From Chitinophagaceae bacterium (GTDB lineage Bacteria; Bacteroidota; Bacteroidia; Chitinophagales; Chitinophagaceae): 64,000 bases of DNA. Both the position numbers and the translations under genes were made by a program. Below are positions 5,947-46,829 of this stretch, piece after piece; the stretch's first letter is position 1; each line of letters begins with the position of its first letter. The DNA lies in NCBI GenBank assembly GCA_014879565.1, contig JACSRW010000028.1, positions 1-64,000 on the forward strand, given 5' to 3'. The notes under the pieces were generated by a model. That model was not told the DNA's origin and searched no databases. It saw only the letters and a list, made by a program, of their open reading frames with translations.

Positions 5947-6555
5947 ATGAATACAAGGAAAAAAATTATCATAGTGGGGGCATCAGGCACCATGGGAAAG
6001 TTTCTGGCTGATTTACTGGAAAAAGAAGGCCATGAAGTAATCAGGGTCAGCAGAACTTCAAAGGATGTAAAAGCAGATACTACATCAGTAAAATCAATTC
6101 AGGAAATGTTTGAAAAGATTGGCGCTTTTGACGCACTGGTTTCCACAGCAGGCTCCACATTTGTCGGTCCCTGGAAAAACCTGAATGATCAGACTTTCAG
6201 AACCGGAGTTGAAGGAAAAATGATGGGTCAAATCAACCTGGTACTGATCGGTCAGCATTATATAAACCCCAAAGGTTCTTTTACTTTAATTACAGGTGCG
6301 CTGACACATGAACCGCAAATTCATTTTGCCAATGCCTCCGCTGCCAACGGGGCAGTGGAAGGGTTTGTGCGGGCAGCTGCAATTGAACTGCAAAACGGCA
6401 TTCGTATCAATGCAGTAAGTCCCACAGTCATTGAAGATTCCCCGCAATATTTTCCATTTTTTCCGGGAGAAATACCTACCACGATGAAGCAATTGGAATT
6501 TGGTTTCAGAAAAAGTTTGTTCGGAGCTGTAACGGGACAAATAATAAAACCATAA
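5947..6555 (+). CDS. Short-chain dehydrogenase-like protein (atypical SDR)
   Basis: A 202-residue Rossmann-fold protein with the nucleotide-binding motif VGASGTMGK at residues 10-18 and the SDR landmarks VSTAGS and INAVSPT. It resembles the short atypical SDR group typified by PRK07578-type proteins. The usual catalytic YxxxK is absent: the expected place reads FANASAANGAVEG. It may therefore bind NAD(P) without classical SDR catalysis or use another mechanism. Ten bases separate it from the next gene, so the two are surely cotranscribed. Confidence 0.85.
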   Translation: MNTRKKIIIVGASGTMGKFLADLLEKEGHEVIRVSRTSKDVKADTTSVKSIQEMFEKIGAFDALVSTAGSTFVGPWKNLNDQTFRTGVEGKMMGQINLVLIGQHYINPKGSFTLITGALTHEPQIHFANASAANGAVEGFVRAAAIELQNGIRINAVSPTVIEDSPQYFPFFPGEIPTTMKQLEFGFRKSLFGAVTGQIIKP

Positions 6556-6564
6556 ATACCCATT

Positions 6565-6786
6565 ATGAAAACAAAAGAAAAAATTATACAGGCATTCAAA
6601 GTCTGGATTGTAATTTATCCTTCTATTACCCTGTTTAATATGGTGTTTGGCGCTTTTTTAAACAGCCTTTCGGTTTATATGAAAACCTTCACCTTAACTG
6701 TGGTGCTGGTTCCCTGGATGATATTTGTGGGCCTGCCTTTTGTAAACAGGCTTCAGCAAAAAATATCCAAAAATGAAAAGGCTTAG
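6565..6786 (+). CDS. DUF2798-like small membrane protein
   Basis: A 73-residue protein with two hydrophobic helices (about residues 11-31 and 39-58) joined by a short loop, and charged ends. The pattern fits the DUF2798 (PF11391) group of two-helix inner-membrane proteins; assignment is by length and hydropathy rather than a strong motif. Its end overlaps the next start by 14 bp, pointing to translational coupling with the flavoprotein. Function unknown. Confidence 0.7.
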   Translation: MKTKEKIIQAFKVWIVIYPSITLFNMVFGAFLNSLSVYMKTFTLTVVLVPWMIFVGLPFVNRLQQKISKNEKA

Positions 6787-7783
6787 CAGAAGAGGGTTTA
6801 TTATCCAAAGCGGGGTGATGGCCACCGCAATAACTCTGCCTTTAGCCTTAAACCCCCTATTAACAAAAATGGAAATGACCAGGATAAGACAATTTGATGT
6901 TATTATTACAGGCGGCAGCTATTCAGGACTGGCAGCAGCTTTGGCTTTAGGAAGAGCCTTAAGAACAGTATTGATTATTGACAACGGAAATCCCTGCAAC
7001 AGGCAAACACCCTATTCTCATAATTTTATTACACAAGATGGTAAGCCTCCACATGTAATCACGGCATCAGCAAAGCGGCAGGTTAAAGAATATAAGACTG
7101 TAGAATTCCACAACGACAGTGTAATAACTGGAAATAAAAATGAAGGGGGATTTGAGGTACACACCCGATCGGGCAGAAAGTTCTCAGCCAAAAAGCTGAT
7201 TTTCGCAACAGGTATCAAAGACATCATGCCCGGCATACCAGGTTTTGCCCAAAGCTGGGGAATCAGCGTATTGCATTGCCCTTATTGTCATGGGTATGAA
7301 GTAAGAGATCAAATAACCGGGGTTCTTGGAAATGGTAACTTTGGTTATGAGTTTGCGGCTTTAATCTCAAACTGGACAAAGGATCTGGCACTGTACACTA
7401 ATGGGAAGTCGGCCTTATCGGCTCAACAAACAAAAAAACTGCACCAGCACAACATCCCCATTATTGAAGACGAAATAGAAAATCTGGAACACGAAAGCGG
7501 CTATTTAAAGAAAATCAATTTCAAAAACGGAATTACGAGAGAAATAAGGGCATTATATACCCGTCCTGATTTTGTTCAGCACTGTTCTGTTCCCGAAATG
7601 ATTGGCTGCGTAATGACCGAGGAAGGTTACATTAAGGTTGATTCAGCACAGCGAACAAGTATTCCCGGGGTTTTTGCCTGCGGGGATAATACAACAAAGT
7701 TAAGAACAGTTGCTAATGCGGTAGCTATGGGGACCACAGCCGGACTGATCGTGAATAAGGAACTGATTGAAGAGGAATTCTGA
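6773..7783 (+). CDS. Tat-exported thioredoxin-reductase-like FAD/NAD(P) oxidoreductase
   Basis: A 336-residue flavoprotein. The N-terminus MKRLSRRGFIIQSGVMATAI is a twin-arginine signal, so a folded FAD enzyme is predicted to be exported. FAD binding: VIITGGSYSGLAAALALGRA near residues 43-62; redox-active cysteines in CPYCHGYE near 174; second dinucleotide site GVLGNGNFGYE; the C-terminal FAD motif GVFACGDN. This is the architecture of low-molecular-weight thioredoxin reductases, but the CPYC centre and export set it apart; similar proteins are annotated only as NAD(P)/FAD-dependent oxidoreductases. Neighbouring SDR and MDR genes suggest detoxification of electrophiles or quinones. Confidence 0.88.
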   Translation: MKRLSRRGFIIQSGVMATAITLPLALNPLLTKMEMTRIRQFDVIITGGSYSGLAAALALGRALRTVLIIDNGNPCNRQTPYSHNFITQDGKPPHVITASAKRQVKEYKTVEFHNDSVITGNKNEGGFEVHTRSGRKFSAKKLIFATGIKDIMPGIPGFAQSWGISVLHCPYCHGYEVRDQITGVLGNGNFGYEFAALISNWTKDLALYTNGKSALSAQQTKKLHQHNIPIIEDEIENLEHESGYLKKINFKNGITREIRALYTRPDFVQHCSVPEMIGCVMTEEGYIKVDSAQRTSIPGVFACGDNTTKLRTVANAVAMGTTAGLIVNKELIEEEF

Positions 7784-7808
7784 ATATTCAGCTTAATAAA
7801 CTATTAAC

Positions 7809-8741
7809 ATGAAAGCAGTTGTTTATACAAAATATGGTACACCAGATGTGTTGGAGTTAAAAGAAGTTGATAAACCGGTTCCTGATTTGAATGAGGTACT
7901 GATTAAAGTGTATGCCACTTCTGTTACTGCCGCAGACTGGAGGATGCGTAAAGCAGATCCATTTCTGGTTCGGCTTTTCAATGGACTCCTAAAACCCAGA
8001 AAGGTAAAAATACTTGGATTTGAATTAGCCGGTATCATAGAAGAAGTTGGCAGCAATATAACTGATTATAAAACAGGTGATCCTGTTTTTGCCTCCTGCG
8101 GATTTAAAGGTGGCGGATATGGAGAATATATCTGTTTAAAAGCAGACGACGCGGTGTCTATAAAACCTTCTAACATGACATTCCGGCAAGCGGCTACTGT
8201 GCCATTGGGCGGGTTAACCGCCTTGCGTTTTTTGAATATGGCAGGAATTAAGCAGGGGCAAAAAGTGCTCATCTACGGAGCATCAGGCAGTGTGGGCACA
8301 TTTGCTGTACAGATAGCAAAAGCATTTGATACAGAGGTTACGGCAGTCTGCAGTACAAGAAACATGAAGCTCGTTCAATCACTCATGGCAGATAAGGTGA
8401 TAGACTATACCAGAGAGGATATTACAAAATTCAAACCGGAATTTGATATGGTGTTTGATGCTGTTGGAAAAGTATCGGGATCCTCTCTGAAAAAGCTGCT
8501 GAAACCCGGTGGTAAATACGTTTCAGTAAGGTCTACTCCCAAAAAAGGAACTAACGAACTCATGTTCTTAAAGCAACTTATAGAAGCCGGAAAACTAAAC
8601 ACCGTGATTGATAAGCATTATACACTGGATCAAATAGGAGAAGCACATTTGTATGTTGAGCTGTTCAGGAAAGCAGGCAACGTATCAATATGTGTTTTAA
8701 ACGGAAACAATTATAGCCTGACTCAAACCAGTATTGCATGA
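7809..8741 (+). CDS. MDR-family NAD(P)-dependent alcohol dehydrogenase / quinone oxidoreductase
   Basis: A 310-residue medium-chain reductase. The GroES-like N-terminal domain (about residues 1-125) has GFELAGIIEEVG and the Rossmann domain has the cofactor motif YGASGSVGTFAVQIAK at about 158-173. The catalytic and structural zinc ligands of classical alcohol dehydrogenases are missing, as in zeta-crystallin-type quinone oxidoreductases. Likely role: NADPH-dependent reduction of quinones or enones in the cytoplasm. Its stop overlaps the start of the following acyltransferase remnant (ATGA at 8738-8741), showing that the donor operon continued into that gene. Confidence 0.88.
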   Translation: MKAVVYTKYGTPDVLELKEVDKPVPDLNEVLIKVYATSVTAADWRMRKADPFLVRLFNGLLKPRKVKILGFELAGIIEEVGSNITDYKTGDPVFASCGFKGGGYGEYICLKADDAVSIKPSNMTFRQAATVPLGGLTALRFLNMAGIKQGQKVLIYGASGSVGTFAVQIAKAFDTEVTAVCSTRNMKLVQSLMADKVIDYTREDITKFKPEFDMVFDAVGKVSGSSLKKLLKPGGKYVSVRSTPKKGTNELMFLKQLIEAGKLNTVIDKHYTLDQIGEAHLYVELFRKAGNVSICVLNGNNYSLTQTSIA

Positions 8742-42404: not shown

Positions 42405-43334
42405 ATGAAAAGATCTGTTTTCTTCTTTATTGTATTACTGACCGGCAATTTTGTACAGGCACAGGATGCAGTTGTACGAAAGCTGCAACAGGAATCGCTC
42501 CGGCAGATTAAAAAAGAAATACCGGATACCGGGAGGAAATCCTGGCGTACCGGTGGTGCCTACAGTCTTAGTATCGGGCAGGGCAGCCAGAATAACTGGG
42601 CTGCAGGGGGGGATGATTTTTCTTTTACCGTCAATACCAATCTTCGCCTGTTTGGGTTTTATAAAAAGAAAAAGCACAGCTGGGATAATACCTTTGATGT
42701 AAGTTTTGGCTACCTCAATACCACCAGTCTGGGCAGCCGGAAAAACGACGACCGGTTTGATATTCTTTCCAAATATGGTCTGGCACTGAATAAAAAATTC
42801 AACCTGGCCACACTCGCCAATTTCCGGTCCCAGTTCCTGAAGGGCTATACTTACCCGAACAATATAAAGACATTTGCCTCCGATTTTCTCTCACCGGCTT
42901 ATCTGGTCATCAGCCAGGGGATTGATTTTAAGCCCAATAAAGAACTGACGATTTTTGTTTCACCGGTTACTTCGCGCTGGGTTTTTGTAAAAGACAGTAC
43001 CCTGGCCGCAAAGGGAGAATATGGGGTGAAGCACAATACTCATAGTATAAACCAGAACGGCGCTTTTGCCACCATCGGTTACCAGCGGGCTTTTAATAAA
43101 GTGGTCTCTTATAAGAGCCGGATTGACTTCTTTTCCAATTACCAGAAGGATCCGCAAAATGTGGATGTATTCATGACCAATACCTTCTCTGCGAAAGTGG
43201 CTAAAATCATTGCCTTCAGCTGGAATGTTGATATGATTTATGATGATGATGTCCGTCTCTTCGGCGAGAACAATGACTCCCCGGCCCTGCAGTTCAAATC
43301 CATTATCGGGATCGGGCTGCAGGTGAAAATCTGA
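42405..43334 (+). CDS. DUF3078 family secreted beta-rich protein
   Basis: A 309-residue envelope protein with a signal peptide (KRSVFFFIVLLTGNFVQAQ). Family signatures: SIGQGSQNNWAAGGDDFS at about 53-70, WDNTFDVSFGYLNTTSLGSR, and the C-terminal IYDDDVRLFGENNDSPALQFKS. The alternating strands and final aromatic/hydrophobic strand suggest an outer-membrane barrel. A clear paralogue lies at 44885-45808 in the opposite direction. Function unknown in both. Confidence 0.9.
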   Translation: MKRSVFFFIVLLTGNFVQAQDAVVRKLQQESLRQIKKEIPDTGRKSWRTGGAYSLSIGQGSQNNWAAGGDDFSFTVNTNLRLFGFYKKKKHSWDNTFDVSFGYLNTTSLGSRKNDDRFDILSKYGLALNKKFNLATLANFRSQFLKGYTYPNNIKTFASDFLSPAYLVISQGIDFKPNKELTIFVSPVTSRWVFVKDSTLAAKGEYGVKHNTHSINQNGAFATIGYQRAFNKVVSYKSRIDFFSNYQKDPQNVDVFMTNTFSAKVAKIIAFSWNVDMIYDDDVRLFGENNDSPALQFKSIIGIGLQVKI

Positions 43335-44884: not shown

Positions 44885-45808
44885 TCAAAATTTAAACAAA
44901 AACCCAATTCCCACCAGCGATTTTACCTGTAAGGCCGCGGAGCGCTGGTTTTTGCCGAAGAGACGTACATCATCATCATAGATAAAGTCAAGACTCCAGG
45001 ATACAGACAGGGTTTTGCCAAGTTTGGCATTCAGGATATTGGACATGAAGATGTCAATATTCTGCGGATTGTGCCGGTAATTGGAGAAGAGATCAATACG
45101 GCTTTTGTAGGTGACGTGTTTATTGATTTCCTTCATGTAATTCACGGTAGCAAAGGCACCAAATTCAAGGTTGGATTTTTTGCCGGGGGTAACCCCGTAG
45201 AGCCCCTTGTTGGAAAGGCTGGTATCGCGAACAATTACCCAGCGGGCGGTGACCGGTGAGAGGAAGATGGAGAAATTTTTTGCCGGTTTATAATCCATAC
45301 CCAGGGAGGTCAGGATATAACCCGGGGCCATAAAGGCGGATGAGAAGGTTTTTATATTACCGGGGTAGGTGTATCCTTTAAACAGTTGGGAGCGCAGGTT
45401 AAAGAGGGCCGATACATTCAGTTTGGGGTTGAGGGCATGGCCGTATTTGGAGAGAAAGTCAAAGCGGTCGTCATTTTTCCGGCCGCCCAGGCTGGTCGTA
45501 TTTACATAACCGATATTAAAGTCAAAGGTATTATCCCAGCTGTGTTTGTCTTTTTTATAAAAAGCATAAAGGCTCAGCAGGGAGTTAACGGAAAGTGAGA
45601 AATTATCACCCCCCGCGGCCCAGTTGCTCAGTGAGCCCTGGGATACATTGATACCATACACGCCGCCGCGTCGCCAGGCTTTTTTACTGGTATCGGCTTC
45701 TTTTTTTATGGCACGCTGGGCTTCCGAGCAGAGGGCTTTCATGGTGCCGTCCTGGGCGCTGGTTATGAATGGTAAAAGAGGAAAGAGCAGGAGTAAAATT
45801 CGTTTCAT
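44885..45808 (-). CDS. DUF3078 family secreted beta-rich protein (second copy)
   Basis: A 307-residue paralogue of the 42405 protein. Started at the ATG at 45808 because the signal peptide (KRILLLLFPLLPFITSAQ) begins there and a perfect promoter motif lies just upstream at 45831; the frame is open to 46036 without coding character. Shared blocks: VSQGSLSNWAAGGDNFS, WDNTFDFNIGYVNTTSLGGR, IYDDDVRLFGKNQRSAALQVKS. Likely outer-membrane barrel of unknown function. Confidence 0.9.
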   Translation of the reverse strand: MKRILLLLFPLLPFITSAQDGTMKALCSEAQRAIKKEADTSKKAWRRGGVYGINVSQGSLSNWAAGGDNFSLSVNSLLSLYAFYKKDKHSWDNTFDFNIGYVNTTSLGGRKNDDRFDFLSKYGHALNPKLNVSALFNLRSQLFKGYTYPGNIKTFSSAFMAPGYILTSLGMDYKPAKNFSIFLSPVTARWVIVRDTSLSNKGLYGVTPGKKSNLEFGAFATVNYMKEINKHVTYKSRIDLFSNYRHNPQNIDIFMSNILNAKLGKTLSVSWSLDFIYDDDVRLFGKNQRSAALQVKSLVGIGFLFKF

Positions 45809-45881: not shown

Positions 45882-45916
45882 CAAAAAAATGCCCTTATGA
45901 AAGGAACATAAGGGCA
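45882..45916 (-). terminator. Strong intrinsic terminator of the leftward RNA gene
   Basis: On the minus strand TGCCCTTATG and CATAAGGGCA (45907-45916 and 45890-45899) form a perfect 10-bp stem with a 7-nt loop, followed by seven T residues (45883-45889). Just upstream, AGCA-GAAGC/GCTTC-AT-TGCT forms another hairpin (about 45917-45941). Confidence 0.85.
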
Positions 45917-45960
45917 AGCAATGAAGCATTTCGCTTCTGCTAAAGTCGCACGAGAAAAAT

Positions 45961-46034
45961 GCTGTAGGGGGAGGGATCGAATGCCGACGCTTTGGTCGGC
46001 ATCCAGACCGGCAAAGCCGCGTCTGGACCTCCAC
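45961..46034 (-). repeat. Partial copy of the RNA gene's 3' end, split by a double palindrome
   Basis: The last 28 bp of the tRNA-like gene (46044-46071) recur here as 45961-45981 (21 bp exact) and 46027-46034 (8 bp), separated by a 45-bp insert. The insert is two hairpins back to back: ATGCCGAC/GTCGGCAT (45981-46002) and CCAGAC...GTCTGG (46003-46026, inner GGC-AAA-GCC). The break falls inside the T loop of the copied sequence. No transposase is near. Confidence 0.85.
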
Positions 46035-46044
46035 AAAAAATTAG

Positions 46045-46215
46045 CTGTAGGGGGAGGGATCGAACCTCCACGGAGCAGTTAGCCAAAAAGCAAAGATTAG
46101 TGGTCAACCCTGGTCGGCCTTACCAATGGTAACGTCGGCTCTACTTTTCGTTTATCCTGTGCTCTCCACCCCCGAGACGAGAGGGCATGTCTGCCAAAAA
46201 TTTCATCACCCCACA
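46045..46215 (-). ncRNA. tRNA-like structured RNA with giant variable region
   Basis: On the minus strand ~171 nt fold by hand as a type II tRNA. Acceptor: TGTGGGG (46215-46209) with CCCTACA (46052-46046), one G-T pair. U8-G9 follow; D stem ATG/CAT of 3 bp with a GG-containing loop, as in Leu and Ser tRNAs. Anticodon-like arm CCCTC-TCGTCTC-GGGGG (46185-46169): position 33 is C, not the universal U, and the triplet would be GTC. T arm GGAGG-TTCGATC-CCTCC (46069-46053) is canonical. Discriminator G (46045); no encoded CCA. The variable region is 99 nt instead of 10-20: stem GGAG(a)GCA/TGCTCC, then CGAAAAG/CTTTTTG, then a TTACC-ATT-GGTAA hairpin. Promoter and terminator flank it. G73 and a long variable arm recall tRNA-Ser. 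Not tmRNA: its insertion would be in the anticodon arm, and no tag frame is seen. Confidence 0.7.
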
Positions 46216-46247
46216 GTGTAGAAGAACTTGTTGTTTGTTTGATAGAG

Positions 46248-46280
46248 CAAATATAGGGCGGCAGGTCTTTTTGTTCCAAA
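46248..46280 (-). promoter_or_regulatory. Bacteroidota promoter (-33/-7) of the tRNA-like RNA
   Basis: Minus strand: TATATTTG at 46255-46248 (perfect TAnnTTTG, followed by C) with TTTGG at 46280-46276, a 20-21 bp spacing that suits this class of promoter. Start predicted near 46241, about 26 nt ahead of the mature-like 5' end, leaving a leader for RNase P-type removal. Confidence 0.7.
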
Positions 46281-46364
46281 TTTTCTAATAATTATTTTAA
46301 AAGTATAGAAATTGTTTAATAAATTAGCATATGTATTAGATTATTTTAAAAAACAGTTGTCAAA

Positions 46365-46829
46365 ATGGGGGTCAAATTGAATCTCGACAATCTCGATCTG
46401 CAGATCATCCACCATATGATGGAGAACGCGGAGATATCCTATGCCGATCTGGGTAAAAAACTCTTTGTATCCGGGGGCACTATACATGTACGGATCAAAA
46501 AACTGCAGGAAGCCGGTATCGTGAAAGGTACAAGATTACAGGCTGATCTGCGGGCTCTCGGCTATGATGTAATCGCCTTTATCGGCATCTATCTGAAGGA
46601 GAGTTCCCTTTATGATACCGTAGCCCGGGAGCTGCAGCGGATTCCTGAAATCGTTCGCCTCAATTATACCACCGGCAACTACAGTATGTTTGCCGAAATT
46701 GTATGCAAGGATATCACCCAGCTCCGTTCGGTACTGCACGATCAGTTACAAAAAATTAAGGGGATTGAGCGTACGGAAACCTTTATCTCCCTGGAGGAAA
46801 GCTTCAGCCGTCATGTAAAAGTGATATAG
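46365..46829 (+). CDS. Lrp/AsnC family transcriptional regulator
   Basis: A 154-residue regulator: N-terminal helix-turn-helix (about residues 5-55; DNLDLQIIHHMMENAEISYADLG, SGGTIHVRIKKLQEAGIV) and C-terminal ligand-binding RAM domain (about 68-150; VIAFIGIYLK, TGNYSMFAEIVCKD). Usually senses amino acids and binds DNA as multimers. AT-rich upstream region holds the promoter. It lies 9 bp before the flippase gene on the same strand. Confidence 0.93.
   Translation: MGVKLNLDNLDLQIIHHMMENAEISYADLGKKLFVSGGTIHVRIKKLQEAGIVKGTRLQADLRALGYDVIAFIGIYLKESSLYDTVARELQRIPEIVRLNYTTGNYSMFAEIVCKDITQLRSVLHDQLQKIKGIERTETFISLEESFSRHVKVI

Follow-up and report, generated by a model that had tools for sequence, protein, structure and literature searches.

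Organization of the locus

The window, a stretch of 64,000 nucleotides from contig JACSRW010000028.1 of a Chitinophagaceae bacterium, carries on its minus strand a tRNA-like RNA flanked by a promoter and a terminator of its own and, divergent from it, a gene for an Lrp/AsnC-type regulator. The features are collected in Table 1. A reading made from the sequence alone (the sequence-only reading) had proposed the promoter, the tRNA arms with their junction bases and the terminator, and each of these parts was located on the minus strand where it had been placed. Unremarked in that reading was a second, partial copy of the T arm and acceptor, situated between the element and the terminator.

Table 1. 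Features of the tRNA-like element and its surroundings in the window
Feature	Position	Strand	Basis
tRNA-like RNA, U1 to C74, 172 nt	46044–46215	minus	Sequence; covariance model match 46042–46216, 189 bits
Acceptor stem, 5' strand UGUGGGG (U1, G2 ...)	46209–46215	minus	Partner strand 46052–46046
D arm AUG/CAU, leucine-type loop with GGCAGA (A at 20a, no U20a)	46187–46206	minus	Sequence; bases after GG counted
Anticodon arm CCCUC-UCGUCUC-GGGGG; G34, U35, C36, C38; base 33 = C, base 37 = U	46169–46185	minus	Sequence; loop counts
Variable-arm domain: GGAG/CUCC, CAG/CUG, internal loop GAUAAA/CUAA, inner helix CGAAAAGU/GCUUUUUG, hairpin	46072–46167	minus	Two-sided changes, helices 5–8
Internal loop strand GAUAAA, facing CUAA 46082–46079	46151–46156	minus	Motif counts across sets
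Conserved segment GGGUUGACCAC, longer forms	46100–46110	minus	GGRTNGACCAC counts across sets
T arm GGAGG-UUCGAUC-CCUCC	46053–46069	minus	Sequence; covariation
Acceptor 3' strand CCCUACA 46052–46046, G73 46045, encoded C74	46044–46052	minus	G73 and C74 in all sequences counted
Promoter TTTG 46280–46277 ... TAtaTTTG 46255–46248, Bacteroidota type	46248–46280	minus	Sequence; kept in genus alignment
boxA-like GUUCUU in leader	46222–46227	minus	GTTCTT enrichment upstream of named loci
Inverted repeat TTTCTA-N18-TAGAAA, conserved AT-rich block; candidate operator of AsnC-type regulator	46282–46311		Genus alignment
Lrp/AsnC-type regulator gene, divergent neighbour	46365–46829	plus	PF01037 E 8.5e-17; PF13404 E 5.5e-13
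Partial T-arm/acceptor copy, T loop split by double-hairpin repeat 46026–45981	45961–46034	minus	Sequence; also in same-genus genome G034
Intrinsic terminator, 10-bp stem and T7	45882–45916	minus	Sequence

The counts that follow refer to four sets of sequences: a closer set (A3), divergent members chosen by covariance model (CM) score (A6), and two sets found with a pattern of the anticodon arm, one termed A5 and the other viral (A4). Two degenerate copies from locus L020 and two partial rows shorter than 90 nt were dropped from the A3 counts. A spurious row (L333:118) was dropped from the A6 base and motif counts and retained in the 29-row covariation analysis; row L223:3440 was dropped from the motif, length and D-loop counts of A5 and kept in the base-identity counts and covariation. 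For the viral set the best 43 rows were used, the other 41 being 25 that overlap ARAGORN tRNAs and 16 of another kind of RNA.

The element may be considered in terms of a tRNA body, with a 7-bp acceptor and a 5-bp T stem, and a large domain in the variable arm. The variable region had been described as 99 nt in length and itself paired. The pairing was borne out, but the length proved to be only one variant: whole elements range from 97 to 214 nt across the counted sets, and one member from the genus, which carries a D-loop insertion, reaches 247 nt. The 97-nt viral forms have a short arm only. Within the domain, GA[TC]AAA followed in order by CTAA is found in 56/65 (A3), 66/102 (A5), 15/28 (A6) and 8/37 viral sequences. 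The segment GGRTNGACCAC is found in 62/65 (A3), 57/102 (A5) and 33/37 viral sequences and in only 1/28 of A6. At the 3' end, G73 and C74 occur in every sequence counted. Since C74 is likewise encoded in the 30 tRNA genes examined in the same genome (29 of 30 tabulated rows, with tRNA-Trp misframed there), the element appears to be set out at N73-C74 like a tRNA awaiting completion by CCA addition. The leader contains GUUCUU, which resembles a boxA motif.

Conservation of the fold

The folding energy is unremarkable (z = -0.52, with 57 of 200 shuffles folding equally well or better) and the case for the RNA therefore depends on comparison. In an alignment of 20 same-genus sequences, 96.3% of cells were paired in the hand structure, two-sided changes were present at 16 of 47 pairs, and the covariation score was matched by none of 500 shuffles. 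The acceptor and D stems are invariant in this set, the support coming chiefly from the variable-arm domain. Among the divergent CM matches (29 rows, one of them spurious), 96.5% of cells were paired and two-sided changes were observed in 24 of 37 pairs, including six of the seven acceptor pairs. Covariation in the 103 distinct rows of A5 agrees with the divergent set. Both of these alignments, which were fitted to the CM and are biased towards its structure, present a cloverleaf in which the acceptor, D, anticodon and T stems all covary. At the level of aligned sequences, covariation demonstrates that the tRNA fold is conserved. Homologues with covarying stems, upon which the sequence-only reading had staked its proposal, were found in all three alignments.

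Distribution among bacteria

A BLASTN search located the element in 24 of 42 same-genus genomes. At E ≤ 1e-14, hand counts of CM matches gave 268/394 genomes of the family, 140/248 of the order and 68/395 of the class; at E ≤ 0.01, the corresponding counts were 273/394, 165/248 and 118/395. All six of the weak matches sampled (40–52 bits, 84–90 nt) were called tRNA-Leu by ARAGORN, which was silent at 21 loci with CM matches of 57 bits or more. Since the weakest matches are at least partly tRNA-Leu genes, members were counted only at E ≤ 1e-14. At the level of the phylum, copies scoring 77–88 bits, several in tandem, were identified in three genomes from one further family outside the class.

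Named records that carry the anticodon-arm pattern (80 listed of at least 120) have Chitinophagales, Saprospiraceae, Cytophagales and Sphingobacteriales among them. The Cytophagales named among the matches listed are Dyadobacter, Algoriphagus and Cyclobacterium, and the Sphingobacteriales are Pedobacter and Sphingobacterium. The names of Flavobacteriales and Bacteroidales do not occur in the 80 records listed of at least 120, an observation that is suggestive only. Judged by these matches, the element is a member of a widespread RNA family, carried by a common soil- and water-dwelling group of bacteria and present in several orders of Bacteroidota.

The element is usually single-copy within the family. 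An intact element at locus L020 (genome G030, contig 43) is followed downstream by two degenerate copies. Elsewhere in the order set, up to five CM matches occur per genome, several of them in tandem, and in Pedobacter a long form is paired with a short form, for instance at loci L200 and L215.

Promoter and neighboring genes

The promoter is conserved across the genus alignment. Among 77 named loci (80 listed of at least 120), TTTG-N17-21-TANNTTTG is found upstream of 19, compared to a shuffled mean of 0.12, and GTTCTT occurs no more than 120 nt upstream of 25, compared to a shuffled mean of 2.7. Of the inverted repeat in the intergenic region shared with the AsnC-type gene, the left half is well kept in the genus and the right half is variable, reading TAGAAA or TGAAAA. 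This TTTCTA-N18-TAGAAA repeat is a candidate operator for the AsnC-type regulator and may have a regulatory role.

A homologue of the AsnC-type gene is divergent from the element at a distance of 61–223 nt in 51 of the 72 named loci for which 700 nt or more of upstream sequence was present (from the 80 listed of at least 120) and is missing from the other 21. When neighbors were clustered by synteny, an AsnC-like cluster was recovered at 83 of at least 120 named loci. Within the genus, the AsnC-type gene is present in 22 of the 24 genomes with the RNA, as opposed to 0 of the 18 lacking it; in the two exceptions, the RNA is at a contig edge. GatB (GatB_N) is encoded in the genome of the window and, among the genus genomes, in exactly 24 of 24 with the RNA and 0 of 18 without it. 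The 18 negative genomes are all small (1.5–2.8 Mb) and may share one or a few loss events, so that the agreement with GatB and AsnC is not independent for each genome.

In E. coli, asnC and asnA form a divergent pair in which an AsnC-type regulator stands back to back with an asparagine-making gene. The AsnC-type gene is divergent in both cases, but here its partner would be an RNA and not an enzyme.

Other recurrent neighbors, judged by eye across at least 120 named loci (L148–L267), were TrmB-like downstream (17), SufB-like upstream (15) and long-chain acyl-CoA ligase-like downstream (13). Beside the element in the window, no more than 4 kb apart, are two similar proteins which both contain the motif NWAAGGD (42405–43334, plus strand; 44885–45808, minus strand).

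Viral copies

The element pattern was found in 43 viral contigs, in each of which the CM gives a score of 70–124 bits. A tRNA or tmRNA gene is present on the same strand within 500 nt of 35 of the 43 viral copies, and at most 10 nt away from 24 of these, compared to 0 of 80 chromosomal loci. Only three short (97-nt) viral forms were called by ARAGORN, as tRNA-Asp. Ordinary tRNA-Asp(GUC), read by eye, is present in 11 of the 43 loci. Phage-type genes were clear in two of nine sampled loci, one with a DNA polymerase (L301) and the other with a portal protein and an ATP-dependent protease (L274); of the ten proteins scanned from the nine loci, three were without a PHROG match and two matched unknown families only. 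Annotated phage and plasmid collections contained no match to the element, and the 43 viral loci, each a piece of no more than about 15 kb, yielded no homologue of AsnC or GatB. A search of viral contigs for proteins related to the AsnC-type regulator confirmed none.

Several of the viral pieces (L301, L271, L277, L280, L303) hold more than 20 tRNA genes, some with a tmRNA as well. L301 also encodes a DruA-like protein (PF14236) near its DNA polymerase.

A second kind of RNA was observed in seven of the 43 viral loci (L273, L275, L276, L296, L297, L299, L302) and in 0 of 308 other loci. It has tRNA-Leu-like ends around a hypervariable core of approximately 50–110 nt, the constant ends being AGTCAGG-TGGCGGAATTGGTAGACGC ... 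ACAGG-TTCGAAT-CCTG-TCCTGACTAC. The 16 copies comprise 12 distinct cores, six of which occur in L273 (minus strand; e.g. 6140–6263, 6475–6617, 7680–7831), and ARAGORN calls none of these RNAs. From their sequences, these RNAs look like tRNA-scaffolded variable RNAs.

Anticodon loop and identity determinants

Among 27 divergent members (A6), base 33 is U in 12, G in 7, A in 7 and C in one, and base 37 is U in 22, G in four and C in one. The closer set A3 has U33 in 53/64 and U at position 37 in 64/64. Because base 33 is U in only 12/27 and base 37 is mostly U, the element is probably non-decoding. The sequence-only description of a tRNA-shaped, probably non-decoding RNA that has a promoter and terminator to itself is supported.

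Other positions vary far less. The divergent members have G34 in 23/27 (U or C in the remaining four), U35 and C36 in 27/27, C38 in 25/27 (A in the other two) and G73 in 28/28. The U1-A72 pair is found in 65/65 (A3), 28/28 (A6), 101/103 (A5) and 35/37 (viral) sequences, and G2-C71 in 65/65 (A3) and 28/28 (A6). Position 20a is A, not U, in cleanly parsed D loops; the D-loop parser failed or misread 3/65 (A3), 8/102 (A5) and 5/37 (viral) rows. G10 is rare (5/65 in A3, 5/28 in A6), and the 11-24 pair of the 28 divergent members is U-A in 18 and C-G in 10. In two A3 and five A5 sequences whose anticodon stem is mismatched, the loop was read with a shift of one register (CTCGGTG) and is TTGTCTC by eye; the anticodon loop could not be parsed for one sequence in A3, one in A6 and two in A5. 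Since the search pattern contained GTCTCG, conservation of the loop cannot be read from the A5 and viral counts; the selection of A3 and A6 did not involve this pattern.

Among the 30 tRNA genes of the same genome, U1-A72 is found only in tRNA-Asn and tRNA-Gln, in a set that has no Ala, Ile or Leu(UAA) gene; tRNA-Trp has A1-U72 by eye. The tRNAs for Asn and Gln are the two classical substrates of GatCAB. The genome also encodes an ordinary tRNA-Asp(GUC). The absence of tRNA-Leu(UAA), tRNA-Ile and tRNA-Ala from the 30 hits over the cut-off in this genome (G000) probably reflects assembly gaps at repeats.

In excerpts of a survey of identity elements (PMC9976931), G73, G34, U35, C36 and C38 are given as strong determinants for aspartate. 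According to the same excerpts, amidation of Asp-tRNA-Asn is conferred by U1-A72 and is blocked in tRNA-Asp by G1-C72 and U20a; G1-C72 is strictly conserved in bacterial tRNA-Asp, and G10 is also listed. The element family carries the AspRS determinants, with exceptions at G34 (4/27) and C38 (2/27), and the GatCAB determinant U1-A72 without U20a. It departs from tRNA-Asp at G1-C72, where it has U1-A72 instead, and at G10. U37, conserved in 22/27, belongs to neither the AspRS nor the GatCAB identity set.

Comparison with known RNA classes

ARAGORN reported no tRNA in the window and none across 21 loci with divergent members. No Rfam match was obtained at gathering score in the window and, at E up to 10, the two weak matches near the element were confined to the terminator. 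At 20 further loci, no Rfam family, RF00005 included, matched the element in a scan that did find tRNA and tmRNA genes. The layout had been thought to be unlisted, and these searches agree. A search of open PMC papers, judged from titles and the starts of abstracts, returned no description of the element; a description elsewhere is possible. With neither an Rfam match nor a description in the literature searched, the element, which lacks a defining property of each of canonical tRNA, tmRNA, Ro60 Y RNA and allo-tRNA, would be a new RNA family. A structured RNA that is present in most searched genomes of one large family (268/394) and in phage tRNA arrays is without a match in the Rfam release used.

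A canonical decoding tRNA was rejected given the silence of the tRNA finders and Rfam, U33 in 12/27 and a purine at position 37 in 4/27, with the three 97-nt viral forms as the exception. A tmRNA shares with the element its tRNA-like ends and is found alongside it in certain phage arrays; it was rejected given the lack of an RF00023 match at the element, the separate canonical tmRNA in the genome and the full anticodon arm. Coding of a protein or a tag peptide was rejected as each of the three reading frames is interrupted by stops, which also sets the element apart from tmRNA. Of the listed frames over the element, the longest (60 codons from a TTG, 46279–46097) terminates within it. A kissing-loop dimer through GGUUGACC was dropped upon inspection as variants such as GGUAGACC are not self-complementary.

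YrlA is a bacterial Y RNA, a non-decoding partner of Ro60 with a tRNA-like module, and has also been reported from phages. Membership of this class was suggested by the tRNA mimicry and a UUGACC segment of the element. Both RNAs are tRNA-like. Ro60 (TROVE) is present in 0 of 42 genus genomes and Rfam gives no match, and a Ro60 Y RNA was rejected; among 14 control genomes, the same search matched in Deinobacterium only. Allo-tRNAs and tRNA-Sec-like RNAs also have a long variable arm and unexpected anticodons, GUC included, but excerpts of PMC7609411 describe them with a 12-bp acceptor domain (8/4 or 9/3) and from Clostridia, Proteobacteria and Acidobacteria. The element has a 7/5 acceptor domain and a structured insertion in its arm, and an allo-tRNA was rejected on its 7-bp acceptor and 5-bp T stem.

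Proposed function

With somewhat better than an even chance, and as the simplest account of all these observations, the element would be a non-decoding tRNA to which AspRS adds aspartate and on which GatCAB makes asparagine, in other words a carrier for tRNA-dependent asparagine synthesis. In favor of this reading are the AspRS and GatCAB identity bases, U1-A72 being confined to tRNA-Asn and tRNA-Gln among the 30 tRNA genes, the co-occurrence with GatB in the genus, the divergent AsnC-type gene, and the ordinary tRNA-Asp(GUC) in the genome and at 11 of the 43 viral loci. The RNA would be processed and CCA-tailed like a tRNA. It would then be aspartylated by AspRS via G34, U35, C36, C38 and G73, and GatCAB would amidate the aspartate to asparagine owing to U1-A72 and the absent U20a. 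The lost U33, the replacement of A37 by U and the large arm would keep an Asn-charged GUC anticodon off Asp codons. Asparagine would be freed spontaneously or by an enzyme that is perhaps docked on the variable-arm domain, and the AsnC-type protein would tune transcription to asparagine. In some large phages, the RNA carried in tRNA arrays would perhaps raise the supply of asparagine. The RNA probably descends from tRNA-Leu, as suggested by its leucine-type D loop and by tRNA-Leu genes being the next-best CM matches (6/6 sampled).

Known tRNA-dependent Asn synthesis in Deinococcus, Thermus and Bdellovibrio is alike in its use of AspRS, GatCAB and U1-A72 and in making Asn on an RNA (excerpts of PMC4206432 and PMC9976931), steps that are proposed here. 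It differs in that tRNA-Asn and a non-discriminating AspRS are used and the product decodes Asn codons, whereas the proposed carrier is a separate RNA that combines an Asp anticodon with a changed decoding loop. As chemistry, the proposal puts a known pathway to a new use. In excerpts of PMC4206432, Bacteroidetes are among the genera with AsnRS, GlnRS and GatCAB and without asparagine synthetase, and tRNA-dependent Asn synthesis via a non-discriminating AspRS acting on ordinary tRNA-Asn is supposed for such Bacteroidetes as well. That route needs no extra RNA, which is a counterpoint to the carrier, as is the fact that GatCAB may serve Gln-tRNA in these hosts. The carrier also leaves the variable-arm domain unexplained and the release step without a candidate enzyme. 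Further points against it are the exceptions at G34 and C38, the departures at G1-C72 and G10, the conserved U37, the 21 of 72 named loci that lack an AsnC neighbor, the negative search for AsnC and GatB homologues at the viral loci, and the short arm of the 97-nt viral forms.

If the asparagine reading is true, a tRNA-derived RNA has been retained for amino-acid synthesis and excluded from decoding. Both the additional 'tRNA' of such phages and a possible supply of asparagine with a discriminating AspRS, in those Bacteroidota that have AsnRS, GlnRS and GatCAB and lack the synthetase (excerpts of PMC4206432), could then be accounted for. The wider proposal, that asparagine is made in several orders of Bacteroidota on an RNA set aside for this purpose and outside protein synthesis, with an AsnC-type switch and as an auxiliary metabolic RNA in phages, is tentative and, from sequence comparisons, falls a little short of an even chance.

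Alternative explanations

The same identity bases would also be expected of a regulator or sensor that binds AspRS and GatCAB, reporting Asp/Asn status or titrating the enzymes with no bulk making of asparagine. Linkage to an amino-acid-type regulator agrees with such a role, the large conserved extra domain could bind a regulatory protein, and the thrS operator offers a precedent for a tRNA-like operator bound by a synthetase (excerpts of PMC9976931). However, neither a target nor a partner was found, and viral copies are near tRNA genes with no regulator detected. A sensor is a credible but unlikely explanation.

Distinctly unlikely is a translation-linked RNA, such as a special tRNA or a ribosome-acting RNA that uses its GUC loop on the ribosome. 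The proximity of 35/43 viral copies to tRNA or tmRNA genes, with 24 at most 10 nt away, and the tRNA-Asp calls for the three 97-nt viral forms are what it would explain. Yet the loop of divergent members (U33 in only 12/27, U37 in 22/27) is at odds with it and an ordinary tRNA-Asp(GUC) is also present. Position in an array shows no translation role by itself, as RNAs with tRNA ends that are not tRNAs lie in these arrays too.

A decoy for, or replacement against, host tRNA-cleaving defenses would account for an element among phage tRNA genes. Against it, the element is usually a single-copy gene within the family and has a promoter to itself and a regulator gene as a conserved neighbor, and U1-A72 would be left unexplained; we regard this explanation as very improbable.

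The sequence-only reading had favored SerRS, which it supposed could charge the element through G73 and the long variable arm. Both of these, with G2-C71, are indeed in the bacterial Ser set given in excerpts of PMC9976931, but so are C72 and C11-G24, where the element has A72 (65/65 in A3, 28/28 in A6) and U-A at 11-24 in 18/28. Serine identity is independent of the anticodon (excerpts of PMC9976931) and, therefore, there would be no explanation for U35 and C36, which are nearly invariant, or for G34 and C38, which are strongly conserved. The conserved bases fit AspRS and GatCAB better, and a seryl-tRNA mimic has only a very slim chance of being correct.

Finally, a decayed, functionless tRNA-Leu gene, to which the leucine-type D loop and the tRNA-Leu genes as next-best CM matches (6/6 sampled) might point, is contradicted by the conserved promoter and by stems that covary in both the tRNA arms and the variable arm, leaving it a negligible chance.

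A double-hairpin repeat in T loops

The repeat that splits the T loop of the partial copy in the window (46034–45961, a copy of the T arm of the element) is a double hairpin, and it was also observed within the T loops (GGT|TCGA) of other partial tRNA 3' halves. The same repeat is present at the end of L003, the start of L004, the end of L002 and at about 1440–1560 of L031, at contig ends. The interrupted sequences there match tRNA-Gly(ccc) and tRNA-Val(tac) in their 3' halves, plus one T arm without an assignment. By its placement, the repeat resembles a mobile palindrome with tRNA T loops as its targets. The same interrupted T-arm copy follows the element in the same-genus genome G034 (L008, 37–389) and thus the insertion is not unique to the present strain.
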